From: Pseudorhodoferax aquiterrae
GTDB lineage: Bacteria > Pseudomonadota > Gammaproteobacteria > Burkholderiales > Burkholderiaceae_C
Direction: 5' to 3'
Assembly (NCBI RefSeq): GCF_014652235.1
Contig: NZ_BMYK01000044.1
Location: 1-34,168, forward strand
Length of the DNA stretch: 34,168 nt
Of the stretch, positions 4,436 through 30,930 are shown one piece after another. The notes beneath the pieces were generated by a model. That model was not told the DNA's origin. It ran no database searches and saw nothing but the letters and a program-made list of their open reading frames with translations. Numbering within the stretch: the stretch's first letter is position 1; each line of letters starts with the position of its first letter. A program made the position numbers and the translations under genes.

Positions 4436-4541
4436 GCGCTTCGTGAACTGCCGAAAGGCAAACACGCGGCGCCTCGGTTCTTGAAAGGCGCACGGCTCGA
4501 CCCCCAAGGTCGGGCCCAGAACACATCTGTCACTGCAACCC

Positions 4542-4565
4542 GGACGGGGATCAGCTTCCCCGTCC
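4542..4565 (+). promoter_or_regulatory. Leader hairpin upstream of DUF3577
   Basis: GGACGGGG at 4542-4549 pairs perfectly with CCCCGTCC at 4558-4565 around an eight-base loop, about 57 bases before the start codon. It follows a CAACCC sequence, as the last hairpin of the repeated leaders further along the cluster does. The rest of the 4167-4621 gap holds the candidate promoter and no gene I can support. Confidence 0.45.
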
Positions 4566-4621
4566 AGACCTTGCGGTCAGGCTCGGGTATGCCGGTCTCT
4601 TTCCATTTTTTGGAGATCACC

Positions 4622-5260
4622 ATGGCAAACCAAGCTCAAGCGCAATCCGAGTACTTCAACCTCCACGTCTCCGGCGTTGGCTACCTCAGCCGCGTCCGCT
4701 GGGTCGGCAACAACAGCCGCAGCGGCGGCCGTCGATCCGAACCGTTCCTGAGCTGCGCCATCAACGCGCTCCGGGGAAACAGCGACGATCCGCAGTACAC
4801 CTACTTCGACCTCAAGGTCAACGGAAGTGACGCGATCGAAATCATCCGCAACCTGGAGAAGGCTGCAAACGAGGGCCGCAAGGTCGTCGTGTCGTTCAAG
4901 GCCGGAGATATCTATGTCCACCAGTACGACCGGCAAGTGCGGGATGCCCAGGGCGGGCAGTCCAACAAGACCGAGAAGGCAGCGCTCGTCAAGGGACGCC
5001 TGATCCTCATCAACACCGCCAAGGTGGATGGGGAACTGGTGTACCGCCGCGAGAGCGAAGAGCCCGGTGCAGGTGGCGAGGACGGCGATTCGCAGGCCAC
5101 TTCGCACGCCGGCCCGGACCAGGAAGAACCTGCCCGCGTCCAGCGGGAGGATCGCTACGAGGACCGCGAAGAGGACCGCCACCAAGGCCGTCCGCAGTCG
5201 CGCAACTTCGTCAGCGAACCGAGGCGCGAGCGCCGCTGGTCGCGGTCTACCCGCGGCTGA
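4622..5260 (+). CDS. DUF3577 / STY4534-family ICE protein
   Basis: The 212-aa protein has a globular N-terminal half of about 145 residues (SEYFNLHVSGVGYLSRVRWV, FLSCAINALRG, YTYFDLKVNGSDAIEIIRNL) typical of DUF3577. NCBI-type annotation calls this family an STY4534-family ICE replication protein. The C-terminal third is acidic and then arginine-rich and probably disordered. The fold region resembles a single-strand-binding type beta protein, which is inference. The ATG is at 4622, preceded by TTTGGAG. In SPI-7/PAPI-1-like ICEs this gene sits near ssb, topoisomerase and DUF3275. Only DUF3275 follows here, so the upstream ICE replication block is missing. Confidence 0.75.
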   Translation: MANQAQAQSEYFNLHVSGVGYLSRVRWVGNNSRSGGRRSEPFLSCAINALRGNSDDPQYTYFDLKVNGSDAIEIIRNLEKAANEGRKVVVSFKAGDIYVHQYDRQVRDAQGGQSNKTEKAALVKGRLILINTAKVDGELVYRRESEEPGAGGEDGDSQATSHAGPDQEEPARVQREDRYEDREEDRHQGRPQSRNFVSEPRRERRWSRSTRG

Positions 5261-5306: not shown

Positions 5307-5763
5307 TTCGCCTTCGGCGCGAGCGCTGATTCAGCGCCAATGAGTCTTAGAATTGCTCGAAAATTGCACGGTCAATAGGGCAAAAACTGTGCGATTCGTG
5401 TTTACTTTCTGGTAATCTTGACAGGTTCCCGAGTGTTTTCTGGTGTCACTACAAACCAGGTGCCGGTCTTCCGGCTGCAGCATCTCAACCCCCGAACGGT
5501 GCACGTCGAAAGACCGGGGTACAAGTCCAAGGCGCTATCTCGCTGATCCGCAAACTTCGTCGTTGCGCTTAATCTCTGTCGGGCTGGAAACCTGCCAGTA
5601 GATCAGAGCCCATTGCGCCAACCTGCCACCCCGGTACGTTGGCGCAATCCATTTTCAGCAGTCTTGTCGCCGTGGCCACGCCACGACGACACATCCCGAC
5701 GGGACACCGATCCCGTCGCGGGCTTGCGTGCTTCCGTTTCCATCCCCCCAAACGGAGCACATC
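5307..5763 (+). other. 457-bp leader region of the DUF3275 gene with three hairpins
   Basis: No gene can be supported here. Three inverted repeats stand out. CCGGTCTT at 5463-5470 pairs with AAGACCGG at 5510-5517. ATTGCGCCAAC at 5612-5622 pairs with GTTGGCGCAAT at 5638-5648. GACGGG at 5698-5703 pairs with CCCGTC at 5712-5717, about 45 bases before the start codon. The 5340-5450 part is AT-richer than its surroundings and holds a TTGACA at about 5418, but no good -10 box at the right distance. Confidence 0.5.
5612..5648 (+). repeat. 11-bp perfect inverted repeat upstream of DUF3275
   Basis: The arms at 5612-5622 and 5638-5648 are perfectly complementary over 11 bp and separated by 15 bases. 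It could be an RNA hairpin in the DUF3275 leader or a dyad operator for a dimeric regulator. No regulator gene lies next to it, and there is no U tract for a terminator. Confidence 0.55.
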
Positions 5764-6429
5764 ATGATCAAGATCGAGCGCACCACGCTGCGCGTCAAGA
5801 AGATCCAACAAAGCAAGAACGGCCCCTTTGCGGTCGCCAATCTCTTCACCGAGATCGGCGAGTTCAAGGTGAAGGACTCGCTGCTGGACCAGTTCGATGA
5901 AGGCGAATACCAGGCCACGGTGTGGATCTCCGAGATCTACCTGGGCCAGTACGTTGCCTACGGCAGGGCCGTGGCGGAAGTCAGGGCCAAGCTGCACGAC
6001 ATCCGCGTCGAGTCCGCGTCCGAGCTCGATGAGGCCCCAGAGCCTCCCGAGCCGGACCCGATTGACGAAATCGAAGCACCGCGGGCAACGCGCAGGCCGG
6101 AGAAGCCTTCGAGGCAGCCGGCCACGCCGCCAACGACGCAGCCGCAGAAGGATGTCGACAGAGCCGGCTCCACTGGCGATCTGTCCGACCTGAAGTCCGC
6201 GCTGCAAGGTATCGGCCGCAAGGCCAAGCCTGAACTGCAGGCCAAGTCGCCGATCAATCTTGCCGAGCTCTTCGGCGTAGAACTTTGCGTGCGCATTCGG
6301 CAACGCGAGCCGGTCAAGCTCGACTCCACGGTCGACCGCGCCTTGTTCCGCCGCCAGGCGGCCACACTGCGCGAAGAGCTGGGCTACGAGTTCGATCCGA
6401 TGCAACAGACGTTCAACCCGGTCAACTGA
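5764..6429 (+). CDS. DUF3275 family ICE protein
   Basis: The 221-aa protein starts MIKIERTTLRVKKIQQSKNG and has a compact beta-rich N-terminal domain of about 85 residues (GPFAVANLFTEIGEFKVKDS, YQATVWISEIYLGQYVAYGR). A proline-rich, low-complexity linker covers about residues 88-140. A C-terminal domain of about 70 residues includes LAELFGVELCVRIRQREPVK and ends GYEFDPMQQTFNPVN. This is the usual DUF3275 layout. The family is found almost only in ICEs and genomic islands and has no assigned reaction. The ATG is at 5764 with CGGAG upstream. A short GC-rich hairpin lies just after the stop. Confidence 0.75.
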   Translation: MIKIERTTLRVKKIQQSKNGPFAVANLFTEIGEFKVKDSLLDQFDEGEYQATVWISEIYLGQYVAYGRAVAEVRAKLHDIRVESASELDEAPEPPEPDPIDEIEAPRATRRPEKPSRQPATPPTTQPQKDVDRAGSTGDLSDLKSALQGIGRKAKPELQAKSPINLAELFGVELCVRIRQREPVKLDSTVDRALFRRQAATLREELGYEFDPMQQTFNPVN

Positions 6430-6439
6430 CCAAACACAC

Positions 6440-6456
6440 AACCCGCGCTGCGGGTT
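6440..6456 (+). terminator. Terminator-like hairpin after DUF3275
   Basis: AACCCGC at 6440-6446 pairs with GCGGGTT at 6450-6456 around a three-base loop, ten bases after the DUF3275 stop. It has no U tract, so it may only stabilise the 3' end or act with Rho. The following stretch up to about 6690 holds no gene I can support. Confidence 0.45.
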
Positions 6457-6689
6457 GTTCCATGCGCCCGAGGTGGACGCATCGAACGGCCCGCAGAGCG
6501 AAGACTCTCAGCCTGGGTGGCGGCAGCCTGATGTGCCGCGGCCATTGCGATTGAGGGTGCCCGGGTCAAAGCCACGCCCGCGCACCACTCACGCGCCATT
6601 CCTTGGCCACCAGGGCCCCGCACCGGTGGCCGGCATGCATGGCAAGTCCCATGCAGCCAGGGGCAGCGTTCAACCAGATCTCAAAACGA

Positions 6690-6856
6690 GGAAGCCGATG
6701 GATTCCCGCAGCGCCTGGCCAGGGCAGGGCGCTGCGGGAAACCATCTCTCCAACCGACGATGGATTCAGGCGCGCTCAGCCATGCAAGCGCGCAGCCGGC
6801 ACTGCCGGCCAGGCACATCTCTCATCAACCCCGACGGGCGCACGCCCGTCGGGGTG
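6690..6856 (+). ncRNA. Repeated structured leader, copy A (upstream of radC)
   Basis: P1 pairs GATGG (6697-6701) with CCATC (6742-6746). P2 pairs 6705-6715 with 6728-6738, an 11-bp GC-rich perfect stem. P3 pairs GCGCGCT (6770-6776) with AGCGCGC (6787-6793). P4 pairs GCCGGC (6795-6800) with GCCGGC (6804-6809). P5 pairs 6829-6839 with 6844-6854, an 11-bp stem ending 28 bases before the radC start. An alternative stem joins 6738-6746 to 6759-6767 (GAAACCATC with GATGGATTC, one mismatch) and would exclude P1. The position upstream of radC matches the described radC RNA motif. Identity with that family is inference. Confidence 0.75.
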
Positions 6857-6882
6857 GCTCCCGTTCCCATCAGGAGCTCACC

Positions 6883-7407
6883 ATGAAGACACCCGTCACG
6901 TTCTCGACTTCCGACGCAACGTCGCACGCGCCGTTGATCGTGCGCGACCGCAACGGCGAATACTTCTCGGCGCAGCCCGAGGACATCCTGCAGGCCGCAC
7001 GTGCGCTGCTGGAACGCAAGCTACAGGGCCAGGTCTTCCTCGACCGGCCAGAGACCGTCCAGGACTACCTGCGCACGCGCATAGGCCACCTGGACCACGA
7101 GGTGTTCGGCGTCGTCCACCTGGACGCGCAGCACCGCATGATCAAGGCCGAAGAGATGTTTCGCGGCTCCATTTCGCAGACGTCGGTCTACCCGCGCGAA
7201 GTCGTCAAGGACTGCCTGCTCTCCAACAGTGCTGCCGTCATCCTGTACCACAACCACCCGAGCGGCTCGCCAGAGCCTTCCAGGGCCGACGAAGCGTTGA
7301 CGCAGCAGCTCAAGGCTGCCTTGAGTCTCGTCGATGTGCGCGTGCTGGACCACATCGTGGTCACGAGCACCACGACGATGAGCTTCGCCCAGCGTGGACT
7401 GATCTGA
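6883..7407 (+). CDS. radC: RadC-family JAB/JAMM domain protein of the ICE type
   Basis: The 174-aa protein has the RadC C-terminal domain with a complete JAMM metal-binding set: E91 in AEEMFRGS, then H123-N-H125-P-S-G, S133 and D136 in HNHPSGSPEPSRAD. This matches HxHx7SxxD. JAMM proteins are zinc hydrolases or non-catalytic relatives. RadC itself has no proven DNA repair role, and ICE and plasmid copies are often called antirestriction-associated. The helix-hairpin-helix half of chromosomal RadC is missing, as is usual for island versions. The ATG at 6883 has CAGGAG seven bases upstream. The next gene starts one base after the stop, so the two form an operon. Confidence 0.9.
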   Translation: MKTPVTFSTSDATSHAPLIVRDRNGEYFSAQPEDILQAARALLERKLQGQVFLDRPETVQDYLRTRIGHLDHEVFGVVHLDAQHRMIKAEEMFRGSISQTSVYPREVVKDCLLSNSAAVILYHNHPSGSPEPSRADEALTQQLKAALSLVDVRVLDHIVVTSTTTMSFAQRGLI

Positions 7408-7408
7408 C

Positions 7409-7765
7409 ATGGCCATGGCCCTCTTCAACATCCAGCTCGCCGACGGCTCCGTCATGACCACCACCTGCCGGCGCGTTCGCGCGACGGTCGATGGCAAGGC
7501 CTTCTGGTTCGCGATCCATCAGTTCCCGGGCAGGGTGCCCAAGTCGATCTCGCACATCGCCAGCGGCAAGCGCGTCTGCGACCTTCCAACAGGGGTCGCG
7601 TTCGCGATGCACCGGCGGCCGGACGAGCGGGAGATGGCGATGGAGGCGCTGGCGGCGGTTGCGCAGCGTGTGGGTCCCGCCCGCATGCGCGAGACCTTGG
7701 AGGCCGCAGAACGTGAGCCGCGCAGCTGCGCAGGCACACCACATGGAAGTCAGCCGCAAGGCTGA
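7409..7765 (+). CDS. Hypothetical ICE protein, 118 aa
   Basis: This protein follows radC by one base (TGA c ATG) and is very probably translated with it. The N-terminal half looks globular (LFNIQLADGSVMTTTCRRVR, ATVDGKAFWFAIHQFPG). The second half is helical (EMAMEALAAVAQRVGPARMR) with a low-complexity tail that may run past the natural end. I recognise no domain. An alternative ATG lies two codons downstream. Its conserved place behind radC suggests a partner or accessory role, which is inference. Confidence 0.65.
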   Translation: MAMALFNIQLADGSVMTTTCRRVRATVDGKAFWFAIHQFPGRVPKSISHIASGKRVCDLPTGVAFAMHRRPDEREMAMEALAAVAQRVGPARMRETLEAAEREPRSCAGTPHGSQPQG

Positions 7766-7778
7766 ACTTCCAAGGAAC

Positions 7779-7935
7779 CCGATGGGTTCCTCCAGCGCCT
7801 GCACCGCGGGCGCTGCAGGAAACCATCCACCAACACCATGGTTTCAGGCGCGCTCAGCCTTGCAAGCGCGCACGGCGGCAACGCCGAGGCACATCTCATC
7901 ATCACCAACCCGACAGGTTGCCGCCTGTCCGGGCG
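7779..7935 (+). ncRNA. Repeated structured leader, copy B
   Basis: P1 pairs GATGG (7781-7785) with CCATC (7823-7827). P2 continues with TTCCTCCAGCGCC against GGCGCTGCAGGAA with one mismatch. P3 pairs GCGCGCT (7848-7854) with AGCGCGC (7865-7871). P4 pairs CGGCG (7873-7877) with CGCCG (7882-7886) around GCAA. P5 pairs CCCGACAGG (7909-7917) with CCTGTCCGGG (7924-7933) with one bulge. The alternative stem is GAAACCAT (7819-7826) with ATGGTTTC (7838-7845), eight perfect pairs. The order of parts is the same as in copy A, but the P4 and P5 sequences differ while pairing is kept. Confidence 0.75.
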
Positions 7936-7962
7936 GCCTCCTGTCACAACCCAGGAGTTTCG

Positions 7963-8220
7963 ATGTTCATGCATTCACACCCGGCAGCTCCGCAAGAGAC
8001 GGCCACGGCCGCGCCACCCGCGCACGGTGTTCTCGCAGCCGCCTGCGGCAGGTCTGATCTGAAGCTGACGGTGCTGCAAAGCGCCGCGGGCTTCTACCTC
8101 GGCACCTTCTGCCCAGCAGAAGGCCCCTTCACGCGGGAATCCGTCGAGTACTTCCCGACCCGCTTGCTGGCGGACGGCGCGCTTAGCAGCGGCCGTTGGA
8201 CGCAACGCGCGCACCTCTGA
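7963..8220 (+). CDS. Hypothetical small ICE protein, 85 aa
   Basis: The ATG at 7963 follows CCAGGAG at a good distance and comes directly after leader copy B. The N-terminal 25 residues are Ala/Pro-rich and probably disordered. The rest (DLKLTVLQSAAGFYLGTFCP, EGPFTRESVEYFPTRLLADG) looks like a small globular protein that senses or contacts a ligand. I recognise no family. A truncated leader copy follows the stop. Confidence 0.6.
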   Translation: MFMHSHPAAPQETATAAPPAHGVLAAACGRSDLKLTVLQSAAGFYLGTFCPAEGPFTRESVEYFPTRLLADGALSSGRWTQRAHL

Positions 8221-8221
8221 T

Positions 8222-8275
8222 CCCTGGCCAGCAGGCCACTTTTCCTCAACCGCAGGACTGCAAGCCCTGCGGGGC
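8222..8275 (+). ncRNA. Truncated copy of the structured leader (P4 and P5 only)
   Basis: TGGCC (8225-8229) pairs with GGCCA (8234-8238) around AGCA, like P4. CCGCAGG (8250-8256) pairs with CCTGCGG (8266-8272), like P5, and is preceded by CTCAA as in the full copies. The P1-P3 part is absent because the preceding gene ends at 8220. It lies 28 bases before the next start codon. Confidence 0.5.
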
Positions 8276-8299
8276 CTGCATCCACCCATGGAGATCCAC

Positions 8300-8611
8300 A
8301 TGTCATTTGTTCGCTCGCAGGAGCTGCCTGCCTATTCGACCGACCGTACGGCCGCTCGCACGGCCGAGGGCTTGCCGATCTGGACCGGTGCCGAGCCTGT
8401 GCCCGCCATCGGGGACGACGTTCACATTCGCGTCAACGGCATCGGCAACGCGAAGGTTGTCGGCTACGGCATCCAGGAGGACTATCTCGGCGTCATGGTC
8501 TACCCGCTCGACCCGCCCCAGTGGTGGATTGATCAGAACGGCCAGCCGTCGCCAGACAAGCCAGCGCTTGCCTTCGGAGCAGAAATTCGCTGCATCACGA
8601 AGGGAGCATGA
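8300..8611 (+). CDS. Hypothetical ICE protein, 103 aa
   Basis: The protein MSFVRSQELPAYSTDRTAAR continues into a beta-rich core (VPAIGDDVHIRVNGIGNAKV, VGYGIQEDYLGVMVYPLDPP), which suggests a small SH3-like or KOW-like barrel. The function is unknown. I chose the ATG at 8300 over the one at 8288 because the first ATG lies inside the GGAG ribosome site of the second. The stop is one base before the methyltransferase start, so the two are co-transcribed and probably act in the same process. Confidence 0.65.
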   Translation: MSFVRSQELPAYSTDRTAARTAEGLPIWTGAEPVPAIGDDVHIRVNGIGNAKVVGYGIQEDYLGVMVYPLDPPQWWIDQNGQPSPDKPALAFGAEIRCITKGA

Positions 8612-8612
8612 G

Positions 8613-9749
8613 ATGGCACTGATGTTCGCGCGCCTGGCGCACAACTTCATCAAGAACGGGTACTACCCGACCGACGAGGTCACCATGCAGCGCATCGTTC
8701 AGATGCTGCGCTGCGCCGGCACCGCATCGCATCGCATGCTCGATCCCTGCTGCGGCGAGGGCGCTGCTCTGGCGGACGTTCGGCATAGCCTGCTGGAAGC
8801 GGCGGCTGCGCAGGACCCGGGCGCGAAGATCGCCATCGAAGCCCTGGGCATCGAGTTCGATCAGGAGCGTGCCTGGCACGCCAAGCAGTGCCTTGACCGC
8901 GTGATCCATGCCGACTTCCACGACGTGGTGGTCAAGCCTCGGTCGATCGGGCTGCTGTTCTTGAATCCGCCCTATGGCTTCGGTGTTTCGGACAAGGCCA
9001 GCGCCAACGCTCGCACGGTGGACGCAGAGAAGGCCGAGCGCCTCGAACGCACGTTCCTGTTCAAGTGCACGCCGCTGCTCGCGCAGCACGGTGTTCTGGT
9101 GTTCCTCCTCCCGCACTATGCGCTGGACGAGGACATGCGGGCACACCTGGCGCGCAACTACCAGAACGTGCAGGCCTTCATGGCCCCCGAGCAGCGCTTC
9201 CGGCAGTGCGTGATCGTCGCAGCCCGCCGCAAGTCCGGCAACGCCAGCAAGCAGGTGATGGAGATGCTTGCGCAGGTGCAGACCGGCGAGGGTGTCCAGG
9301 AGCTGCCGGAAGAATGGGTGTCAGAGCCCTACGTCGTGCCGGCCGTTGTCGATGGCGAGTTCAACTTCCACGCGGTGCGCATCGATGCGCCCCAGCTCGG
9401 CGACGAGCTGGATCGTTACCGTCAACACCTGCTGTGGGAAGGGTTCGATGCCCACTTCCACCGCGCGTCCTATGTCTGCCGGCCCACGCTGCGCGAGATG
9501 ACGCCATGGCATCTGGCTCTGTCTCTGGCTGCCGGCCAGGTCACGGGGCACTTTCGTTCGGTGCAGGGACGCGAGTTCTTGCTCAAAGGCGACACGTTCA
9601 AGCACAAGCAGCGGACGGTCACGAGCGAAGTGAACGAGAAGGGCGAGGCCAGCCAGGTCATCACCATGCTCGACCGCTTCGTGCCGGTCATCAACGCGAT
9701 CGAGTTCACGCCGGACCACCGGCTGGGCCAGATCGTCAAGGTGGCGTGA
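8613..9749 (+). CDS. N6-adenine-type DNA methyltransferase, DUF6094-like
   Basis: The 378-aa protein has SAM-binding motif I (LDPCCGEGAAL, about residues 43-53) and catalytic motif IV NPPY at 118-121 in LLFLNPPYGFG, the order of group gamma N6-adenine methyltransferases. The C-terminal half (about 230-378) has no clear match and may recognise DNA. It resembles the DUF6094 proteins found in ICEs, usually beside RadC and a large SNF2 helicase. It would be expected to methylate adenine in DNA, either protecting the element or as part of an antiviral set. No restriction nuclease is visible nearby. The ATG at 8613 is one base after the previous stop, with GGGAG upstream. Confidence 0.8.
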   Translation: MALMFARLAHNFIKNGYYPTDEVTMQRIVQMLRCAGTASHRMLDPCCGEGAALADVRHSLLEAAAAQDPGAKIAIEALGIEFDQERAWHAKQCLDRVIHADFHDVVVKPRSIGLLFLNPPYGFGVSDKASANARTVDAEKAERLERTFLFKCTPLLAQHGVLVFLLPHYALDEDMRAHLARNYQNVQAFMAPEQRFRQCVIVAARRKSGNASKQVMEMLAQVQTGEGVQELPEEWVSEPYVVPAVVDGEFNFHAVRIDAPQLGDELDRYRQHLLWEGFDAHFHRASYVCRPTLREMTPWHLALSLAAGQVTGHFRSVQGREFLLKGDTFKHKQRTVTSEVNEKGEASQVITMLDRFVPVINAIEFTPDHRLGQIVKVA

Positions 9750-9751
9750 CC

Positions 9752-10042
9752 ATGGGAAATGGCACAGCCCCGCTCTTCGAGCTTGGCAGCATCGTGATGA
9801 CGCGGGGTGTCGACGCGCTCGTCCAGGCGGGCGTGTTCGACTCTCCGCTGCTCTACGTCCTGCTGCATGTCGTGGGCGAGTGGTCCGAGATGAGCTCCGA
9901 CGACCGCAGGCGCAACCTGCAGGCCGTCCTGGACGGAGAGCGCATCGTCTCCGCCTTCCAGGTCACGGACACCGTGAAGATCTACGTGATCACCGAGCAG
10001 GATCGCAGCGTGACGACGCTGCTCCTTCCTTCGGAGTACTGA
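9752..10042 (+). CDS. Plasmid/ICE-associated hypothetical protein, 96 aa
   Basis: The protein contains LFELGSIVMTRGVDALVQAG, SSDDRRRNLQAVLDGERIVS and a closing ITEQDRSVTTLLLPSEY. I know this as a recurring small protein of ICEs and broad-host plasmids without a named function. Its start is two bases after the methyltransferase stop, so it is the last gene of the 8300-10042 unit. It is soluble, with no metal or nucleic-acid motif. It is followed by leader copy C. Confidence 0.7.
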   Translation: MGNGTAPLFELGSIVMTRGVDALVQAGVFDSPLLYVLLHVVGEWSEMSSDDRRRNLQAVLDGERIVSAFQVTDTVKIYVITEQDRSVTTLLLPSEY

Positions 10043-10050
10043 TCCACACA

Positions 10051-10234
10051 AGGGAAGCGACGGCTTCCCGCTGCATCTGGCTTCATCGAGTCCGGGTGCA
10101 GCGGGAAACCGTCAACCGACACCAAGCGGTTTCCAGGGCGCGCTCAGCCCTTCGAGCGCGCCTGCCACATCCGTGGCTGGGCAAGGTGGCACTTCGGTGC
10201 CTTATCACCAACCCGTGCGGGGCCAAGCCCCGCT
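10051..10234 (+). ncRNA. Repeated structured leader, copy C
   Basis: P1 pairs GACGG (10059-10063) with CCGTC (10109-10113), a compensatory change from GATGG/CCATC in copies A, B and D. P2 pairs TTCCCGCTGCA (10065-10075) with TGCAGCGGGAA (10097-10107). P3 pairs GCGCGCT (10138-10144) with AGCGCGC (10155-10161). P4 pairs GCCAC (10164-10168) with GTGGC (10173-10177). An extra hairpin pairs GGCAC (10188-10192) with GTGCC (10197-10201) around TTCG. P5 pairs GCGGGGC (10217-10223) with GCCCCGC (10227-10233). The alternative stem is GAAACCG (10105-10111) with CGGTTTC (10127-10133). It precedes the gene at 10268. Confidence 0.8.
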
Positions 10235-10267
10235 GGGGCGGAGCCTTGCGCATTTCTGGAGTTTTCC

Positions 10268-10657
10268 ATGATCGAGTTCGATACCGCCATCTGCAAGCGG
10301 GACGGCAACTGGCATGCCCAGTCCACGATGATGATCGACGACACGAACCGCGAGTTGAAGATCGTCACCATGAAGCACCACGATGGCGTTGTCCGCACGC
10401 GGGCAAGCGTCCACCGGCTCGTGGGCACCGAAAGGCGCTTCACGGTGGGCTTCGGCATCAACGGCGACTTTTCGGCGCCGATGATGGCGATGCGCTACCA
10501 GCGTGTCACGGAGAAGACCGTCAGCACGCAACACGCCACGTGTCTGGCCCAAGCAGAGAGCGTCCTGTTTCAGGTGCGCGATCACTATGCCAAGCAGAAG
10601 GCCGCCGCCGAGCCGGTGGAGGCCACGGTCGACGGCGATGCCGAGGTAACGGCTTGA
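10268..10657 (+). CDS. Hypothetical ICE protein, 129 aa
   Basis: The protein MIEFDTAICKRDGNWHAQST has an antiparallel beta-looking core (MMIDDTNRELKIVTMKHHDG, RFTVGFGINGDFSAPMMAMR), then a helical tail (ATCLAQAESVLFQVRDHYAK) and an acidic end. No domain is recognised. The ATG at 10268 follows CTGGAG at good spacing, directly after leader copy C. Its stop overlaps the next gene's TTG start (TTGA), so the two are translationally coupled. Confidence 0.65.
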   Translation: MIEFDTAICKRDGNWHAQSTMMIDDTNRELKIVTMKHHDGVVRTRASVHRLVGTERRFTVGFGINGDFSAPMMAMRYQRVTEKTVSTQHATCLAQAESVLFQVRDHYAKQKAAAEPVEATVDGDAEVTA

Positions 10658-10914
10658 GCGCGGCGGCGCGGCTGACGAACGAGGAGTTCGTCGCCGAGCT
10701 GATGCAGTTCAGCTACTTCGGTGCGTTGAGCCAGGTGTTCGTCATCGAGGCGATCCGCCGCTATGCCGACCAGGTGGCGGCGGCCCAGCCCTCCGAGGTC
10801 GACACGCCGTTCCTGAGCGGTCCGGTCTGGATCGGCGTTGCCAAGGAGATCCAGGCCAAGGTGTACAACCAGTACGACGTCGACGCCGACATGGTGGTCC
10901 AGAAGCCCGACTAG
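10654..10914 (+). CDS. Hypothetical ICE protein, 86 aa (TTG start)
   Basis: The protein LTNEEFVAELMQFSYFGALS, followed by QVFVIEAIRRYADQVAAAQP, is a helical soluble protein. I know similar small proteins in ICE clusters but no function. The TTG at 10654 overlaps the previous stop as TTGA and has GAGG seven bases upstream. No ATG or GTG start is available at this end. It is soluble and acidic, has no membrane segment, and is followed by leader copy D. Confidence 0.65.
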   Translation: MSAAARLTNEEFVAELMQFSYFGALSQVFVIEAIRRYADQVAAAQPSEVDTPFLSGPVWIGVAKEIQAKVYNQYDVDADMVVQKPD

Positions 10915-11007
10915 GGTTGTCGCTGCCCGGCACTGCGCATCTGCGCGGTGCCGGGCCAGTGATTCTCTGGACGGCGGCCCGCGTCGATGCCACACTTCGA
11001 ACCCGAA

Positions 11008-11209
11008 CCCTGATGGGTTCCCACAGCGCCCTGCTGGCCAGGGCGCTTCGGGAAACCATCCTTCCATCCACGATGGTTTCAGGCGCGCTCGGCCTTGCAA
11101 GCGCGCCGGCTGGAGACAGCCAGGCATTTCTTCATCAACCCTTGTGGGATCACGCATCCCGCATGGGCACGTGACCCGCTCTTCAACCCTCTGGGGACAA
11201 CCGGTCCCC
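11008..11209 (+). ncRNA. Repeated structured leader, copy D
   Basis: P1 pairs GATGG (11012-11016) with CCATC (11056-11060). P2 includes AGCGCCCTG against CAGGGCGCT with an internal mismatch before GGGAA. P3 pairs GCGCGCT (11083-11089) with AGCGCGC (11100-11106). P4 pairs GGCTG (11108-11112) with CAGCC (11117-11121) around GAGA. Two P5-like hairpins follow, one at about 11144-11162 and one pairing GGGGAC (11193-11198) with GTCCCC (11204-11209). The alternative stem GAAACCATC (11052-11060) with GATGGTTTC (11072-11080) is a perfect 9-bp match. The 10915-11245 gap holds only this element. Confidence 0.8.
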
Positions 11210-11245
11210 GCTGGGCTCGGTCGTCCCTGCAACCTGGAGACGACC

Positions 11246-11529
11246 TTGTTTGAATCCCTGAACGACGACCAGCGCAGGCTGTTCCACGCGGCCCTGGCCG
11301 ACTGGCTGCTTGCGCCGGCGAAGCCGATTTCGAGGCCATCGAAGCCCTGCGCGAAGAGATCGCGCCTGGCGAGGTGTGCTCGATGCTCAGGCTGATCCGG
11401 ACGTGTTTTGCGCGTCCTGAACTTCAAGCGCGTGTGCCGGCTGCGCTGGTGGCACTGCTACGAGAACGGAATTTGCTGCGGCCCGCCGCTGCCTTGACCG
11501 TGCTCGCAACTGCGGCAGGGCGTCCTTGA
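11246..11529 (+). pseudogene. Small ICE gene broken by a one-base deletion
   Basis: The TTG at 11246 with GGAG eight bases upstream starts LFESLNDDQRRLFHAALADW. Near 11311-11318 the coding frame shifts. The other frame then reads naturally as AGEADFEAIEALREEIAPGE and continues to the TGA at 11527-11529. The span is 284 bases, one short of a multiple of three, so a single lost base explains it, and the restored protein would be about 94 aa. It has no recognised domain and is mostly helical. It is either a true frameshift or a sequencing error. It is preceded by leader copy D and followed by leader copy E. Confidence 0.65.
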
Positions 11530-11650
11530 CGTCCAACTCCTCCAGCAGCACGGACCAGTCCGGCTGCTGAGGGGGAGTGCCTGCCACGAGTTCGAGGTGC
11601 GGTTTGCGGTGCATGTGCGCAGTGTCGCACCTCTGGTCGCCCCTGCGCAC

Positions 11651-11824
11651 GGCAGCGGCTTCCGCTTGCACCTGGTCACGTCGGATGCAAGGGGAAACCG
11701 TCAACCAACCACAAACGGTTTCTCGGGTGCGCTCAGCCCTTCGAGCGCGCCAGCCACATCCGTGGCTGGGCACAACGGCACCTCGGTGCCAACTTCATCA
11801 ACCCATGCGGGGCCGCGCCCCGCA
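11651..11824 (+). ncRNA. Repeated structured leader, copy E
   Basis: P1/P2 pair CGG and TTCCGCTTGCA (11656-11670) with TGCAAGGGGAAACCG (11686-11700), with one mismatch and a bulge. P3 pairs GTGCGCT (11727-11733) with AGCGCGC (11744-11750) through one G-U pair. P4 pairs AGCCAC (11752-11757) with GTGGCT (11762-11767). An extra hairpin pairs GGCAC (11777-11781) with GTGCC (11786-11790). P5 pairs GCGGGGC (11807-11813) with GCCCCGC (11817-11823). The alternative stem is GAAACCG (11694-11700) with CGGTTTC (11716-11722). It is closest to copy C. The 11530-11650 part upstream holds no supported gene. Confidence 0.75.
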
Positions 11825-11856
11825 AGGGGTGCGCCCGCGCCTTTCAGGAGCGGACC

Positions 11857-12249
11857 ATGCGAATCCAACTCGAAAGCACCAGCTGCGGCTGGTCGGCCGA
11901 GACACTTATCGAGCTCGATCAGCAACGCGTGCTGGTCATCCGGACTGCTCGCGCGTCGGGAAACCAGGCCAACCTGGTGACGCGCGCGACGGTTTCTACC
12001 CGTCTCGAAGATGGAGAACTGATCTACGACATCGGTGGCGATGCGCGCCAGGGCGACTTCGACCAGCTCATGGTGTCCACGCCATGCATGCAGAACAGCC
12101 ACATCACCAAGGTGCTCGTGCGCGAGCAGCACGACAAGGTGCTGGGCACGCTGCCAGATCTCCGCTCGCGAATCACGCAGCACTACCGGCACGTTCCGCC
12201 CTTGGACTGCTCGGCGTGCCGCGAGGAACCAGGGGCACACCATGGCTGA
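11857..12249 (+). CDS. Hypothetical ICE protein, 130 aa
   Basis: The protein MRIQLESTSCGWSAETLIEL has a beta-rich start (QQRVLVIRTARASGNQANLV) and a C-terminal region with CSAC near the end, too short for a zinc finger on its own. No family is recognised. The ATG at 11857 follows CAGGAG at seven bases, directly after leader copy E. The stop lies inside the next gene, with an 8-base overlap, which points to an operon of three overlapping genes (11857, 12242, 12510). Confidence 0.65.
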   Translation: MRIQLESTSCGWSAETLIELDQQRVLVIRTARASGNQANLVTRATVSTRLEDGELIYDIGGDARQGDFDQLMVSTPCMQNSHITKVLVREQHDKVLGTLPDLRSRITQHYRHVPPLDCSACREEPGAHHG

Positions 12250-12517
12250 GATCGAACGACTTGCCCAGGAGGTCGTCAATCGGTGGGAGAAGGGAGATCT
12301 GGCCGAAGCGGTCAGGGCGCTGTCACAGCACCTTGAATCGTTGAAGTCCGAGCGCCTGGCCTGCCGCCACCACATCGCCGCCGCGGAGCAGCTCCATTGC
12401 GATGAGGACGTGCAGGTCGATGACGATGCAACGGTGTCCCCAACGGACGACGGATGCTGGGTCAGCGCCTGGTTGAAGGTACGCGACGAGGATGTGCAGG
12501 AGCCAGAGCATGGCTGA
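12242..12517 (+). CDS. Hypothetical small acidic ICE protein, 91 aa
   Basis: The protein MAEIERLAQEVVNRWEKGDL starts with two amphipathic helices that could form a coiled coil (AVRALSQHLESLKSERLACR) and ends in an acidic tail. There is no catalytic motif. It overlaps its upstream neighbour by 8 bases and its downstream neighbour by 8 bases, so the three are probably made together. Function is unknown. Confidence 0.6.
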   Translation: MAEIERLAQEVVNRWEKGDLAEAVRALSQHLESLKSERLACRHHIAAAEQLHCDEDVQVDDDATVSPTDDGCWVSAWLKVRDEDVQEPEHG

Positions 12518-13130
12518 CACCCTGTACCGCGTTCAAGAGTTCCCGGAGGTCTTCGTCGATGCTTGCCTGCGGGACAGCAGCGGCACCATGAAGTTCCTGT
12601 CGGTCTACGGCCGCGACGGCTCGCTGATGCAGTTCGAGGCAGCGATGCAGCTGGGTCACAAGGAGGGCGGCGTCAGCCGATTTCAACTGGTGGCCGATGG
12701 CGCGCGCCATGCAGTCGACGTTGGCAATGCCAACGGGCTGACCACGTTCTCGGGGCGTCTGCCGCGGCAGAACGTGTTCGGCCCGCTGTCGCAGGTGTGG
12801 ATGTACGACAAGGCATTCACCACGTTGGACCGGCCCAACCGGATCGGCTGGGTGATGCACCGGGCTGGCACCGGGCAGGGGGCGCAGGATCGCTTGCGCG
12901 GCCTGCTGGACCAGGCCTGGGAGCTGACCCGTCAGCTGTCTCCGGTCGCGCTGCTCGACGCCTGGCGTCCCGAGTTGCAGGCCTGGTGCATGGAGAAGCT
13001 GGCCTACCAGCGCCTCGGTGACGCCCTGTACCCGCCTCTCGGCCAGGTGGACGCCATGCGCGTCAGCATTTCTGACCACTTCCTTCGCTTCGTCAGCGAC
13101 CAAGTCCGCCAGAGGGTGTTCGTCCTCTAG
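12510..13130 (+). CDS. Hypothetical ICE protein, 206 aa
   Basis: The protein MADTLYRVQEFPEVFVDACL has a beta-type N-terminal half (GTMKFLSVYGRDGSLMQFEA) and a central segment RLPRQNVFGPLSQVWMYDKA. The C-terminal half is helical (LDAWRPELQAWCMEKLAYQR). I do not recognise a domain. The ATG at 12510 is preceded by GCAGGAG and lies inside the end of the previous gene. The SNF2 helicase follows after 112 bp that contain a strong hairpin. The constant place before the helicase suggests it belongs to the same functional set, which is inference. Confidence 0.65.
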   Translation: MADTLYRVQEFPEVFVDACLRDSSGTMKFLSVYGRDGSLMQFEAAMQLGHKEGGVSRFQLVADGARHAVDVGNANGLTTFSGRLPRQNVFGPLSQVWMYDKAFTTLDRPNRIGWVMHRAGTGQGAQDRLRGLLDQAWELTRQLSPVALLDAWRPELQAWCMEKLAYQRLGDALYPPLGQVDAMRVSISDHFLRFVSDQVRQRVFVL

Positions 13131-13138
13131 CCCCACGC

Positions 13139-13161
13139 CCGCCGGCCTCATCCGCCGGCGG
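13139..13161 (+). promoter_or_regulatory. GC-rich hairpin between the 206-aa gene and the helicase
   Basis: CCGCCGGC at 13139-13146 pairs perfectly with GCCGGCGG at 13154-13161 around a seven-base loop, eight bases after the upstream stop and about 80 before the helicase start. There is no U tract. It may be a processing or attenuation site, or a remnant of the leader family seen elsewhere in the cluster. Confidence 0.45.
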
Positions 13162-13242
13162 CGCATCCCAAGCTGCGCGTCAGGCCCATCGGGGGTCGGC
13201 GCGCATTTCGTTCTTCACTACCTCACCCACAAGGAGAGATCC

Positions 13243-15654
13243 ATGCAAACCACCAACGACCTCGCGGTCATCGACAGTCCCGACGCGGCGGCCGTGGCCA
13301 TGCCGGACCAGCAGCAGGATGCGGCCATCTCCGCCGAGACGCTGCAAGAGCAACCCGATGTGGCCGAGCGTGCCGACATCATGGATGGCGTCATCAGCGA
13401 GACCATCGCCCTGGGCGATTTCATGCGAAGCTTCGGCGCCAGCATGCTGGAGCAGGTCAAGGCGAGCAACCCGCCCGTCTACCAGCCAGCGCTGGACCAG
13501 CATCTGCCGGTCTGGCAGGCGCGGCGAGCCGTGATGGCGTCGCTGCGGCGCAGGCCGTTTCCGGCGCAATCCGAGGCCGTGCAAGCCGTGTGCAAGCTCT
13601 TGCTGGACCGTGGCGAACCCGCTGCGGTCCTGAACGCCGAGATGGGTTCGGGCAAGACCATGATGGCGATCTGCGCGGCCGCGGTGCTCCAACAGGAGCA
13701 TCCGCGCACTCTGGTGATCAGCCCGCCCCACCTGGTCTACAAGTGGCGACGGGAGATCATGGAGACGGTGCCAGGGGCCAAGGTCTGGGTGCTCAACGGT
13801 CCCGACACGCTGCGCAAGCTGCTGCAGGTGCGCGCGACGCTGGGGTTGAAGAGTCGTCATCCCGAGTTCTACGTGCTCGGCCGTGTGCGCATGCGCATGG
13901 GTTTCCACTGGAGGCCGGCTTTCATCACACGCCGCCTGCGGGACGAAGGGCAGACCCATACGGTCGCTTGCTGTCCGCAGTGCATGGCTCCGCTCGACCG
14001 CATGGACCCGGACGGTCCGCGCGCCTGGCTGTCGGCAGAACTGGCCGCGGCCGTGCTGAGCGGCATGCGCATGCAGTGCACCGTCAAGTCCTGCAGGAGC
14101 CCGCTGTGGACGCTGATCCGGCCGGGCACCGCGAAGCAGTCGCTTCGCGACCTGGTTGGTGCGGCCATGCAGCAGCTGCCCACGATCGGCCCCGTCGCCT
14201 CCAAGCGGCTGCTGGACATGTTCGGCGAGTCGCTGCTGGGCTCGATGCTGGAGGACAACGTCTATGAGTTCATCAACCTCATGGACGAGAACGGCGACAT
14301 GGTCTTCAGCGACCGGCAGGCGCGCAGGCTGGAGCGGTCCATGGCGAGCTTCGAGTTCTCGATCGGACAAGGTGGCTACCAGGCCACCGAGTTCATCAAG
14401 CGCTATCTGCCGAAGAACTACTTCGGCCTGCTGGTCGTCGATGAAGGCCACGAGTACAAGAACGAGGGATCGGCCCAGGGCCAGGCCATGGGCGTGCTGG
14501 CCAGCCAGTGTCGCAAGACGCTGCTGCTGACCGGTACGCTGATGGGCGGCTACGCCGACGACCTGTTCCACCTGCTGTGGCGGCTGAACCCCGCCGTGAT
14601 GGTGGCCGACGGTTTCAAGCCCAGCGAGCGGGGCTCGTTCCACGGTGCCAACATGGCGTTCATGCGCGAGCATGGGGTGCTCAAGGAGGTGTACCGGGAA
14701 ACCGGTGCATCGTCGCATCGCACGGCCAAGGCCAAGAGCCTGACGGTCCGCACCAGCAAGGCGCCGGGCTTCGGCCCTGTCGGCATCCTGCGCTATGTGT
14801 TGCCCATCACGGTGTTCCTGAAGCTCCGGGAGATCGACGCGAAGGCGCTACCGCACTACGAGGAGGTCTTCGAGCCGGTGGAGATGGACGATGCGCAGGG
14901 TGCGGCGTACGCGCTCATGGCCTCCACGCTCGTGCGCATCCTGAAACAGGCGCTGGCCTTGAAGGACAGCACCTTGCTGGGTGTCGTGATGAACGTGCTG
15001 CTGGCTTGGCCAGACTGCTGCTTCCGGCCGGAAACGGTCCGCCATCCACGAACGCGCGCATTGCTGCACAAGCAGCCCGCCATGTTCGACGACACCACGC
15101 TGATGCCCAAGGAGGCCAGGCTGGTGGAGATCTGCAAGCAGGAGAAGGCGGCCGGGCGTCGGGTGCTCGCGTACACGATCTATTCGGGTACGCGGGACAC
15201 GACCGCCAGGCTGCGCAACCAGCTCGAGGTCCGCGGCTTCAAGGTCGCTGTTCTGCGCGCGAGCGTGGATGCGTCCAAGCGCGAGGACTGGGTGGCAGAC
15301 CAGGTCGAGCGCGGCGTCGACGTCGTGCTGTGCAACCCCGAACTCGTGAAAACGGGTCTCGATCTATTGGAGTTCCCGACCATCGTCTTCATGCAGTCTG
15401 GCTTCAATGTCTACACCGTCCAGCAAGCCGCAAGGCGCAGCTGGCGGATCGGGCAGCGCAAGTCGGTCAAGGTGTACTACCTTGGCTATGCGCTCACCAC
15501 GCAGATGGACTGCCTGCGGCTCATGGGCAAGAAGATCGCGGTGTCGCAGTCGACCTCGGGCGACATGCCGGAATCCGGTCTCGACGTCCTGAACGACTCC
15601 CAGGGTGACAGCCTGGAAGTGACGCTGGCGAAGGAACTGCTGGCCGCCGCGTGA
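13243..15654 (+). CDS. SNF2/SF2-type DNA helicase with a cysteine insert (ICE type)
   Basis: The 803-aa protein has Walker A AEMGSGKT at 132-139, DEGH (motif II) at 400-403, TGT at about 430-432 (motif III) and QQAARRSWRIGQ at 727-738 (motif VI, the SNF2/ERCC signature). Between the N-terminal motifs and motif II there is an insert of about 240 residues with C244-P-Q-C247 and C279/C284, a likely zinc site. SNF2 ATPases move along double-stranded DNA and remodel or strip bound proteins. This one fits the large helicase often found with DUF6094 methyltransferases in ICEs. The start ATG has AAGGAG upstream. No nuclease domain is visible. A terminator follows. Confidence 0.85.
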   Translation: MQTTNDLAVIDSPDAAAVAMPDQQQDAAISAETLQEQPDVAERADIMDGVISETIALGDFMRSFGASMLEQVKASNPPVYQPALDQHLPVWQARRAVMASLRRRPFPAQSEAVQAVCKLLLDRGEPAAVLNAEMGSGKTMMAICAAAVLQQEHPRTLVISPPHLVYKWRREIMETVPGAKVWVLNGPDTLRKLLQVRATLGLKSRHPEFYVLGRVRMRMGFHWRPAFITRRLRDEGQTHTVACCPQCMAPLDRMDPDGPRAWLSAELAAAVLSGMRMQCTVKSCRSPLWTLIRPGTAKQSLRDLVGAAMQQLPTIGPVASKRLLDMFGESLLGSMLEDNVYEFINLMDENGDMVFSDRQARRLERSMASFEFSIGQGGYQATEFIKRYLPKNYFGLLVVDEGHEYKNEGSAQGQAMGVLASQCRKTLLLTGTLMGGYADDLFHLLWRLNPAVMVADGFKPSERGSFHGANMAFMREHGVLKEVYRETGASSHRTAKAKSLTVRTSKAPGFGPVGILRYVLPITVFLKLREIDAKALPHYEEVFEPVEMDDAQGAAYALMASTLVRILKQALALKDSTLLGVVMNVLLAWPDCCFRPETVRHPRTRALLHKQPAMFDDTTLMPKEARLVEICKQEKAAGRRVLAYTIYSGTRDTTARLRNQLEVRGFKVAVLRASVDASKREDWVADQVERGVDVVLCNPELVKTGLDLLEFPTIVFMQSGFNVYTVQQAARRSWRIGQRKSVKVYYLGYALTTQMDCLRLMGKKIAVSQSTSGDMPESGLDVLNDSQGDSLEVTLAKELLAAA

Positions 15655-15706: not shown

Positions 15707-15860
15707 CGCCTCCGTCGGGTCGGTGGTGGCGGACTGAGCGTCGACTTTCCGACGGAAGCGGGACGGCTGGTCAATGCCCTCTCATCGGGTCGCGGCGCTG
15801 TCCCACGCTGCGGCGCCCATCGTCCGAGACACTGGGGACCCAAGTCAAACAGGAGTCAAC

Positions 15861-16310
15861 ATGGGAATTCTGAGCGACATTCTCGGCAAGATCTTTCCCT
15901 CTTCCCACGCAGCGAATCCGTCGGCTACGCCTGCCGCGGTCCCGCCAACAGCAGGACCAGCAGGTGCTGCCTCTGCGGCACCGGTCGCTCCGCCTCCCGC
16001 GTCGCAGCCGACGGGTGGTGGTATGGGTGCAACAGCGCCCCAGCCGATGACGCAGGTCGACGTCGAGCAGATGCTCAACGAAATGGCGGCCAGATCCAGC
16101 GAGAAGCTGAACTGGAGGACATCCATCGTCGACCTCATGAAGCTGCTCGGTTTGGACAGCTCACTTGGCGCGCGAAAGGAGTTGGCCCAGGAGCTCCATT
16201 ACACCGGTGACACCAACGACTCCGCAGCCATGAACGTATGGCTTCACCGGCAGGTCATGAACAAGGTGGCAGCCAACGGTGGTAAAGTGCCAGCCGACCT
16301 ACGCGACTGA
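15861..16310 (+). CDS. DUF3597 family protein
   Basis: The 149-aa protein starts MGILSDILGKIFPSSHAANP and has a Pro/Ala-rich linker of about 50 residues. A conserved C-terminal domain contains KLNWRTSIVDLMKLLGLDSS, ARKELAQELHYTGD and NVWLHRQVMNKVAANGGKVP. This is the standard DUF3597 layout. DUF3597 resembles a LysM-adjacent peptidoglycan-associated or stress protein family, and its role is not settled. There is no signal peptide. The ATG at 15861 has CAGGAG upstream. It is not a typical ICE gene, so the ICE fragment ends between the helicase and this gene. Confidence 0.85.
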   Translation: MGILSDILGKIFPSSHAANPSATPAAVPPTAGPAGAASAAPVAPPPASQPTGGGMGATAPQPMTQVDVEQMLNEMAARSSEKLNWRTSIVDLMKLLGLDSSLGARKELAQELHYTGDTNDSAAMNVWLHRQVMNKVAANGGKVPADLRD

Positions 16311-16349
16311 GATTCGGGATGGGTTCCGGCCGGAGGAGTGAATTCGCGC

Positions 16350-17623
16350 TCAGCTTTGCGGAACAAATCCGCTCTGCACCTGGTTGCGGCCTCGCTCCTT
16401 CGCAGCGTAAAGGGCCGCGTCGCTTGCCGCAATCAGTTCGGTCGGGTTGCTTTGCGCGTCAGGGACGAGCGCCGCGACGCCCAGGCTGACCGTCACGACG
16501 CCCATCGTCGATCCAGCATGTGGGATGGCCAGCTCCTTGACGGCGCGACGAGCCGCCTCTGCGACCGCAGTTGCGCCCTCGACGCCGGCCCGCGCAAGAG
16601 GATGACCATCTCCTCGCCTCCGTAGCGTGCGACAAAATCTTCAGGGCGACGTACCACGGCTCGCAGGGCGGCGGCAACGCGGGTCAGGCAGTTGTCGCCC
16701 TTGACGTGGCCGTAGGTGTCGTTGAACTGCTTGAAGAAGTCCACGTCGACCATGACCAATGCGAGCGCCGTCCCGTCACGTTGCGCTTGTTTGAAGGCTC
16801 TGGCCAGACGTCGATCAAAGTACCCGCGGTTCGGCAGTCCAGTGAGTCCGTCGAGCTGTGCCATTTTCTGCAGGCGGGCGTTGGCGACGGCAAGCGCGTT
16901 GTGCGCCTCGCGAAGCTCCTTCTCTGCGCGGACGCGTTGGCGCAGCGCACGTCGGATGACGCGTACTCCGCCGAGCAGCGCCGCGCACAGAAGGAGAACC
17001 CAAAGGGTCTGCAGCCAGGACGAAACGCGCCAGGCGGAAAGGACCTCGTCATGCGACGAGGAGGCGATGACGACGAGCGGATAGCTCCTGCCACGTTCAA
17101 AGCTGTAGAACCGTTGGATGCCGTCGATCGGAGAGCGTGCATCACCGAAGCCAGCGTTGGCGCTTCCCAGAACCCGCTCCAGCGCATCTGCGGACTTGCC
17201 GATGTCGGAAGCGATCAGTGGATGCCTGGCGGCGAAGTGGCCGGCGACGACCAGGGTCAGCGCGCCTTCGCCCACGTCGAATCGCTCAAGCACACGGCGC
17301 AGGTGCTCCAAGCTCAAGGTTGCCAGCACGACGCCCGCGAACCTGCCTTCCGCATCGTTCATCCGACGAGAAATAGGGACGACCCATTGGCTCGAAGAGT
17401 GGCTGATGATCGGTGCTCCCACCAACGCGGTGCCGCTCGGATTGCTGCGGTGGTGGCTGAAGTAGGAGCGGTCTGCATTGTTGAGAGTGGATTCCCAACG
17501 GGACTCCGATGTCGCGATCCAGGTCCCCGCGGCGTTGTACAAGAAGAGCCCCTGGAGCTGCTCCGTTCTCGCCACATGGTTCACCAGGACCGGTTGCAGA
17601 TCCATGAGCATGTCGTTCGTCAT
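16350..17623 (-). pseudogene. Diguanylate cyclase with Cache-like sensor, truncated and frameshifted
   Basis: The minus-strand frame encodes an extracellular sensor part (LQGLFLYNAAGTWIATSESR), a transmembrane helix (WLQTLWVLLLCAALLGGVRV) and a GGDEF domain with I-site RPED and active-site GGEEM. Near 16588-16594 the frame changes. The other frame continues naturally as AGVEGATAVAEAARRAVKEL and ends DAALYAAKERGRNQV with a stop at 16350-16352, consistent with one lost base. The 5' end is also missing. Homologous-looking coding continues upstream of 17623 to about 17695 without a start codon or first membrane helix, then meets an in-frame stop. The gene is probably inactive unless the shift is a sequencing error. 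Confidence 0.75.
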
Positions 17624-17951
17624 CTCACTGCGCTCAAGGGTCTGAACCAGGCTGTCGAGGATTTGCTCATGGAGGCCATCTACCGTTCGGCGGAGCTCGG
17701 CCGACCTGTGCGCATTCCTTCACCCCATACGTCCGAAGGCAAGGCATGAACGTCAGCGACCACCTCATCGAACGTCTGCTTCGCCACCGGAAACAAACAC
17801 AACACGAAAGAAGTTGACATCCCCGGGCATTCGCACCCAAAGTGAGCCTGCCGCCGCACCCCTACTGCGGCGTGCCGGAATGATGAAGTTGACGTAGTCC
17901 CTGTACGGCTGGAGTTGGGGCGGCTCTGGCATTGGAATCAAGGACGGTTCG
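17624..17951. other. 328-bp gap between divergent GGDEF genes
   Basis: The first 70 bases read on the minus strand as the lost upstream coding part of the truncated cyclase. The rest holds no supported gene. A hairpin of GCCGC with GCGGC lies around 17850-17872, and TTGACA occurs near 17815 without a matching -10 box. This is probably the junction of two unrelated segments. Confidence 0.4.
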
Positions 17952-30928: not shown

Positions 30929-30930
30929 CC

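Follow-up and report, generated by a model that had tools for sequence, protein, structure and literature searches.

Leader RNAs in which one arm has competing pairings form a general class, the terminator/antiterminator riboswitch leaders. The closest described system to the leaders reported here is radC RNA (Rfam family RF01754), presented in the 2010 passages devoted to it as a certain RNA that is probably cis-regulatory and whose status as a switch is unknown (PMC2864571; Weinberg et al., 2010). On the scale of a whole conjugative element, the passages on ICEclc transfer competence describe a 27-bp motif at eight of nine bimodal promoters (PMC9286271). We analyzed a 34,168-nt stretch of DNA from Pseudorhodoferax aquiterrae (NZ_BMYK01000044.1, contig C44 of a 7.11-Mb genome also labelled G000), hereafter the window, in which one leader type occurs in five full copies, A to E, at positions 6697, 7781, 10059, 11012, and 11654. 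As in the conjugative element ICEclc, one cis element is common to several operons; the ICEclc motif is described in those passages as a promoter motif, and the two are compared by description only (PMC9286271).

The leaders are ordered, ~190-240 nt long, and end at the ribosome site. A preliminary description of this DNA had reported a stem order common to five intergenic regions and had placed the leaders before genes of the cluster; the stems were found at those places, and the copies stand in sense orientation before several genes of a mobile-element module, the gene after copy D being frameshifted. The conserved competing pairings, the sense orientation, and the place before genes are observed. 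With about as much doubt as confidence, we read each copy as a 5' leader RNA that acts in cis within a mobile-element regulon and is an architectural relative of radC RNA, and the leaders may coordinate the regulation of the module's genes.

Competing pairings in the 5' strands

Leaders were collected with two covariance models, R1, built from the five window copies, and R2, built from 31 matches (27 distinct). The working set, A3, holds 44 matches, 42 of them distinct, from 11 genomes, i.e., ten genomes of the family (two contigs each from the window's own genome and G384) and one Hydrogenophaga metagenome-assembled genome. Antisense matches and matches weaker than 1e-10 were excluded, L022, L024, L030, L081, L029:8828, L079:6893, and L078:2771 among them.

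The first stem, P1, pairs strand 1 with strand 2 and is built from GATGG or GACGG...TTCC and GGAAACC(A/G)TC. Its sequence changes while its pairing, over up to 18 positions, is kept, with compensatory changes at column 3 (T-A/C-G) and column 14 (A-T/T-A) and with some mismatches in each of copies B, D, and E. That the stems stay paired though their sequences change had been claimed in the preliminary description and was borne out, except that the outer 5' end of copy E reads AGCGG and not GACGG. Strand 2 can pair instead with a downstream strand 3. This alternative stem is indeed perfect over 9 bp in copy D, as claimed earlier; the corresponding strand of copy A is GATGGATTC, which leaves one A.A mismatch.

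In the 42 distinct copies, a 35-pair structure comprising P1, hairpin 2, hairpin 3, and a pseudoknot had standard pairs in 92.7% of cells, compared with 78.2% after shuffling, and 221 double-change cells, compared with 58; none of 500 shuffles reached either measure, and sliding the structure out of register lowered the standard cells to 37-42%. The alternative stem 2:3 was paired in 89.9% of cells (85.8% when shuffled) with 19 double-change cells (8.3 when shuffled), values reached by 0 of 500 shuffles, while its pair-type count was unremarkable (reached by 175 of 500). We also made a tree-based null of our own, in which parsimony changes on a FastTree tree were replaced randomly on the branches. 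Under this null, covariation was equaled in 0 of 500 rounds for the outer and apical parts of P1, the alternative stem, hairpin 2, hairpin 3, and the four inner pseudoknot pairs; for percent paired, the counts were 3 of 500 for the alternative stem, 2 of 500 for the pseudoknot, and 0 for the other four helices. In this wider alignment, six helices, the alternative stem included, therefore exceeded the null. Independent changes were few, numbering 2 to 5 per column at nine columns inspected. Column 71 illustrates the double constraint: where it is A (25 copies), T stands in both strands 1 and 3; where it is G (10 copies), C stands in both; and in the other 7 copies, the alternative pair is lost. 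The earlier claim of two exclusive, conserved folds is upheld, and covariation supports both.

A further strand takes part in this exchange. Column 6 of P1 faces a nearly invariant A and forms a standard pair there in only 2 of 42 copies. Just 5' of P1 lies strand 0, GGAACCC or GGGAAGC in many copies, which forms a short hairpin, P0, with strand 1, and it is within P0 that column 6 is paired in 38 of 42 copies (C-G in 25, G-C in 10, T-G in 2, and A-T in 1). We attribute the mismatch at column 6 to this pairing of strand 0 with strand 1. At least 7 of 8 P0 pairs were present in 23 of 42 copies, compared with an average of 2.4 and at most 7 when the upstream sequence was shuffled 200 times, the register being picked for best pairing in copies and control alike. 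The folds 0:1 plus 2:3 and 1:2 are thus predicted to compete, with 0:1 and 2:3 matching where 1:2 does not. Summed segment energies, a control-free comparison, favor the long P1 by a median gap of 2.35 kcal/mol; the gap is within 5 kcal/mol in 28 of 42 copies and the two-hairpin state is favored in 11 of 42. In the minimum-energy fold of one copy (L079:14884), strand 0 also pairs with strand 3 around P1. Strand 0 with P0, the pseudoknot, and the P5 partner switch described below are additions to the earlier picture, as are a further full copy elsewhere in the genome and the frameshift after copy D.

The pseudoknotted core and the P5 region

The pseudoknot joins the loop of hairpin 2 to a strand that follows hairpin 3. 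Three of its pairs are present in 42 of 42 copies and one in 40 of 42, one of these being G-C in 27 copies and A-T in 15. Taken alone, the pseudoknot exceeded all 500 shuffles in paired cells, double-change cells, and covariation score. An equivalent pairing was recognized, partly by eye, in the divergent loci L021-L025 and L030 (Rhizobacter, Dechloromonas, Burkholderiales, Niveibacterium, Betaproteobacteria, and Aromatoleum), with a loop of about CARYYCCUGMA. Hairpin 2 and the pseudoknot together hold 16 G.U cells and 1 A.C cell on the sense strand, an excess that favors sense-strand RNA; the ratios in hairpin 3 (10 to 7) and P1 (29 to 22) are not decisive for the strand. The loop sequence ACTC is common to all four copies of L076, and ACCC with GGGT to all four of L077/L078, a pattern compatible with concerted change or with a partner specific to the element. 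In other elements, that of the window included, there is a mixture of two or more loop versions.

After the pseudoknot strand, a linker of ~10-30 nt, by reading, ends in a conserved CAACCC, and the 5' arm of the next hairpin, P5, pairs first with a near strand (N). When the far strand (F) was added, the minimum-energy fold shifted the P5 arm in 26 of 39 copies, compared with 5.3 expected when the far part was shuffled; the remaining 3 of the 42 copies could not be segmented. Copies B, C, D, and E of the window are among the changers. A run of at least five T residues precedes the ribosome site in 9 of the 39 copies, 5 of these 9 being changers, and several of the T-run copies are close relatives (L020, L075, and L029; L077 and L078). 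The competing near and far pairing of one arm and these T-runs resemble terminator/antiterminator riboswitch leaders, from which the window copies differ in lacking a T-run, in the extra exchange of 5' strands, and in that a single leader type is repeated before several genes of one element. Two earlier P5 analyses, in which hairpins had been mis-segmented, were replaced; their far-strand test had reached P < 0.05 for 9 of 41 copies of the window type and, in the second of them, for 0 of 6 of the radC type. TTGAC occurs within -70 to -8 in 5 of 42 window-type copies.

The preliminary description had also listed a sixth region, near 8222, as keeping P4 and P5 only. A lone P5-type hairpin is present there; the other part is just a short hairpin, which is followed by CTTTTCC (8225-8238, just 5' of the P5-type hairpin) and is listed by the terminator scan.

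Relation to radC RNA and rival explanations

Compared by eye, radC RNA and the window leaders share hairpin 1, CCCAGG, hairpin 2 with a loop of ~11 nt, an adjoining hairpin 3, and then a pseudoknot strand, and the 3' side of the loop is similar (UUCGA/UGCAA vs. UUCAA). They are further alike in that most genomes matched have several copies per element, in the P5 region, where a partner change was found in 5 of 6 radC copies (three of nine were skipped), and in their site before genes such as radC and methyltransferases, which we take to be the defining downstream gene list of radC RNA. In contrast, a further 3' domain of radC RNA, ~60 nt long (model positions ~85-149), is absent from the window type, which has the P0/P1 strand exchange. 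The structure line of RF01754 has the matching hairpin order without a pseudoknot. Under a fixed rule, we found at least 4 pseudoknot pairs in 17 of 20 radC copies and at least 5 in 12 of 20, compared with 11.9 and 4.4 when strands were swapped and 7.6 and 2.1 when they were shuffled; 0 of 1000 swaps reached either count. By eye, L017 and L090, which the rule mis-segmented, would be added and L016 would not. An earlier rule, which placed hairpin 2 in 16 of 20 copies and recovered the expected pairing in only ~9, was replaced by this two-hairpin rule. A later study counts radC among the alignments whose proposed covarying pairs outnumber those given in databases, so its pseudoknot may already be predicted there (PMC7657543; Rivas, 2020).

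At the sequence level, the two did not meet. RF01754 had no match at its gathering score (40 bits) in the window, in the window's genome, or in L018-L024, and none at E <= 10 in positions 6000-13000 of the window; R2 had no match at E <= 1 in nine radC loci (L009-L017); and Rfam, searched at gathering and looser limits, returned nothing relevant for the leaders. The RF01754 model did find copies elsewhere: of 40 genomes near the window, one had 4 and another 5, and 5 of 398 genomes drawn from the phylum had 1 to 4. The earlier suggestion that the copy before radC fits the context of the radC motif stands as to context, but this copy does not match the Rfam model, so that context and topology, not sequence, link copy A to radC RNA. 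Part of this context is shared by genes: homologues of DUF3577, DUF3275, and DUF6094 lie beside radC copies in L086 and L087, with the helicase too in L087, and RadC does so in L085; the radC clusters of G003 and G019 contain homologues of module genes. Both leader types occur in G003, with RF01754 copies on contig C8 and copies of the window type on C11; versions of the module genes lie next to each. TTGAC was also seen 22-29 nt 5' of the motif in 9 of 11 radC copies (L088-L098; five genomes, one other family) and could be a -35 box, which would leave little room for P0/P1 there. Judged from sequence and context, the window leaders are probably cis-regulatory and a diverged, Rfam-undetected relative of radC RNA in architecture; the two have a common architecture and probably a common descent, and the leaders are not members of RF01754 as defined.

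A mechanism can be proposed from these pairings. Four mutually complementary strands, 0 to 3, would form either hairpins 0:1 and 2:3, with the apical stem of P1 kept, or the long P1 (1:2). The pseudoknotted core, the linker ending in CAACCC, and the P5 hairpin would follow in this 5' to 3' order, and the 5' arm of P5 would pair with N or with F, which lies just 5' of the ribosome-binding site. The leader would be transcribed, and a trans-acting factor or ligand may read the core and bias the 5' strands, whose exchange would be coupled to P5. The choice between N and F would then set expression. Where a T-run follows F, termination would do so; leaders that lack the run, those of the window included, would depend on Rho, RNA decay, or ribosome access instead. 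A bolder version, possible if rather doubtful, would put a whole conjugative-element regulon under one RNA device: the four strands would exchange partners (0:1 plus 2:3 vs. 1:2) and set, via a pseudoknot with element-varying letters, a downstream terminator or ribosome gate. In that case, radC RNA and the window leaders would both belong, as separate branches, to a single large class of mobile-element switches, and a factor encoded by the element would read them. A second family that has a radC-like core, lies beside homologous genes, and combines a pseudoknot with good support and two conserved sets of alternative pairings offers concrete predictions for the function of radC-type RNAs. It also opens a way to ask how RNA might let conjugative elements coordinate their genes, and these leaders escape Rfam-based annotation.

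Several observations weigh against a switching leader. The working set was fitted to P1 and hairpins 2 and 3, and the P0 register was chosen for best pairing. In the alternative stem, 19 A.C cells (16 of them at the outermost pair) outnumber 13 G.U cells, which leaves its strand undecided. Of the five pseudoknot pairs tested, the outermost is formed in only 5 of 42 copies, and the covarying-pair count (320 of 500) and pair-type count (500 of 500) of the pseudoknot do not go beyond shuffles. The P5 region is unchanged in 13 of 39 copies, including copy A and 4 of the 9 that have five or more T residues in a row, and the T-run after F is at most 3 in the window copies. Between 6400 and 12300, terminator-like sites show no clear excess (5 vs. 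3.2 expected), and a scan of the sense strand there for sigma-70-like promoters found none.

The copies might simply be ordinary members of RF01754, which we think fairly unlikely: the shared order of hairpins, CAGG, and pseudoknot strand with its similar loop, the several copies per element, the homologous module genes beside radC copies, and the P5 partner change in radC RNA all argue for membership, and the absence of profile matches in either direction, the missing radC 3' domain, and the extra P0/P1 argue against it. Constitutively structured 5' untranslated regions that protect or insulate the mRNA, with the alternative folds as by-products without switching, would suit the very stable hairpins, the window copies without a T-run, and the want of a known regulator, and since the strands are alike some cross-pairing is automatic. 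Such cross-pairing does not account for the compensation at column 71 in both folds, for the match of strand 0 to column 6 in 38 of 42 copies, or for a P5 partner change about five times the shuffled expectation, and we consider this explanation unlikely.

Single-stranded promoters of the Frpo type occur on plasmids, P0 is palindromic, and RadC and the methyltransferase resemble establishment genes, so the elements might act as DNA, either as operators for a palindrome-binding protein or as Frpo-like promoters after conjugative entry. We regard this as highly improbable, given that the P0 loop varies, by reading, from ~1 to 10 nt while its pairing persists, that the G.U excess in hairpin 2 and the pseudoknot is on the coding strand and a transferred template would reverse it, and that an operator does not resemble an ordered leader that stops at the ribosome site. 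It is more improbable still that the copies are untranscribed, being recently duplicated repeats or recombination sites. In line with this idea, C and E agree at ~85% over a stretch of 109 nt; however, copies A, B, C, D, and E are closer to their counterparts in Variovorax boronicumulans (L018; identities of 0.88, 0.91, 0.87, 0.88, and 0.86) than to one another (at most 0.80), so that they are not recent duplicates, and compensatory change keeps the structure in copies that, in 38 of 42 cases, stand just before an open reading frame (ORF).

Distribution and gene context of the leaders

Model R1 recovered the window copies and also found leaders in relatives and one more full copy, the sixth, on contig C52 of the window's genome; 6 of 60 genomes had matches, the window's own included. 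R2 matched 11 of 399 genomes drawn from the family, the window's own included, and 1 of 399 drawn from the order, which was the window's genome. Matches in two genomes were discounted: those of R1 and R2 in G007 (L084; one of the six) look unrelated, and those of R2 in G252 (L081; one of the 11) have a P1-like hairpin but a different downstream part. The region of L081 concerned (contig C2, 4907-15074) carries four leaders in another cluster, with the P1-like hairpin kept, a P5-type hairpin in most, and a different middle; they are possibly a third leader type. A core search of L026, L027, L028, and L081 gave nothing convincing. Two further copies, outside the model, lie on a Comamonas aquatica plasmid (E 1.3e-18 and 4.2e-15); plasmids of Paraburkholderia and Nitrogeniibacter with module genes had no confident leader copies, and Blastn of copy A against plasmids gave no match. 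No description of these leaders was found in open-access literature judged by titles and abstract openings, without supplements, and a term search of PMC11109978 and PMC8632094 had no match.

A ribosome site and an ORF of 50 codons or more follow the leader in 38 of 42 copies, with the ORF starting 48-124 nt past the pseudoknot strand; the exceptions are window copy D, L020:11199, L080:9502, and L075:11215. Compared with an intact 94-aa relative in L018, the gene 3' of copy D (11246-11526) has a frameshift, its tblastn pieces falling in two frames (86% and 79%). The features of the window are collected in Table 1.

Table 1. Leaders, their parts, and module genes in the window.
Feature	Positions	Strand	Remarks
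Leader copy A	6690..6882	+	Precedes radC (ATG 6883); R2 match 6697-6832, E 1e-30; reading extended to start codon
Strands 0 and 1 of copy A (hairpin P0)	6690..6706	+	6/8 pairs
P1 hairpin of copy A (strands 1, 2, and apical stem)	6697..6746	+	
Strand 3 of copy A, alternative partner of strand 2	6759..6767	+	
Pseudoknotted core, copy A (hairpin 2, hairpin 3, pseudoknot strand)	6768..6817	+	
Leader copy B	7774..7962	+	Precedes short ORF (ATG 7963); R2 match 7781-7912; P0 8/8 pairs
Pseudoknotted core, copy B	7846..7893	+	
Lone P5-type hairpin (sixth region)	8247..8299	+	Prefix folding: partner change predicted once far strand added
Leader copy C	10052..10267	+	Precedes ORF 10268-10657; R2 match 10059-10215
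Pseudoknotted core, copy C	10136..10185	+	
P5 region of copy C (approximate); near hairpin N or far hairpin F	10206..10254	+	5' arm pairs far strand at 6/6
Leader copy D	11005..11245	+	Two P5-type hairpins; precedes frameshifted gene; R2 match 11012-11142
Alternative hairpin 2:3 of copy D	11051..11080	+	9 bp perfect
Pseudoknotted core, copy D	11081..11128	+	
Leader copy E	11647..11856	+	Outer 5' arm partly degenerate; precedes ORF 11857-12249; R2 match 11654-11805
Pseudoknotted core, copy E	11725..11774	+	
DUF3577 gene	4481..5260	+	Pfam PF12101, 4.9e-40
DUF3275 gene	5728..6429	+	Pfam PF11679, 9.8e-30
radC, RadC-like JAB domain	6883..7407	+	Pfam PF04002, 3e-44
DUF6094 methyltransferase-like gene	8613..9749	+	Pfam PF19587, 5.8e-20
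SNF2/DEAD-type helicase gene, closes module	13018..15654	+	Pfam SNF2-rel_dom and Helicase_C

Most of the module genes recur in relatives, though RadC does not in every one. The module is also found on the Comamonas aquatica plasmid, which has conjugative-pilus genes yet is typed non-mobilizable, and on a Paraburkholderia plasmid typed conjugative. The label of integrative and conjugative element given in the preliminary description finds no showing inside the window and rests on these two plasmid locations; a TIGR03743 search of the window's genome returned nothing above the cut-off. Genes 3' of the helicase (15774-33205) have a chromosomal look, encoding DUF3597, GGDEF proteins, LigD, a PAS histidine kinase, and an SDR protein, and the border of the element may therefore be near 15.7 kb. 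The same genome holds a second, partial copy of the module on contig C52 (L083, 10700-15141), in which DUF3275, RadC, and the next gene gave no match and in which a B-type leader lies directly 3' of the apparent 3' half of an A-type leader.

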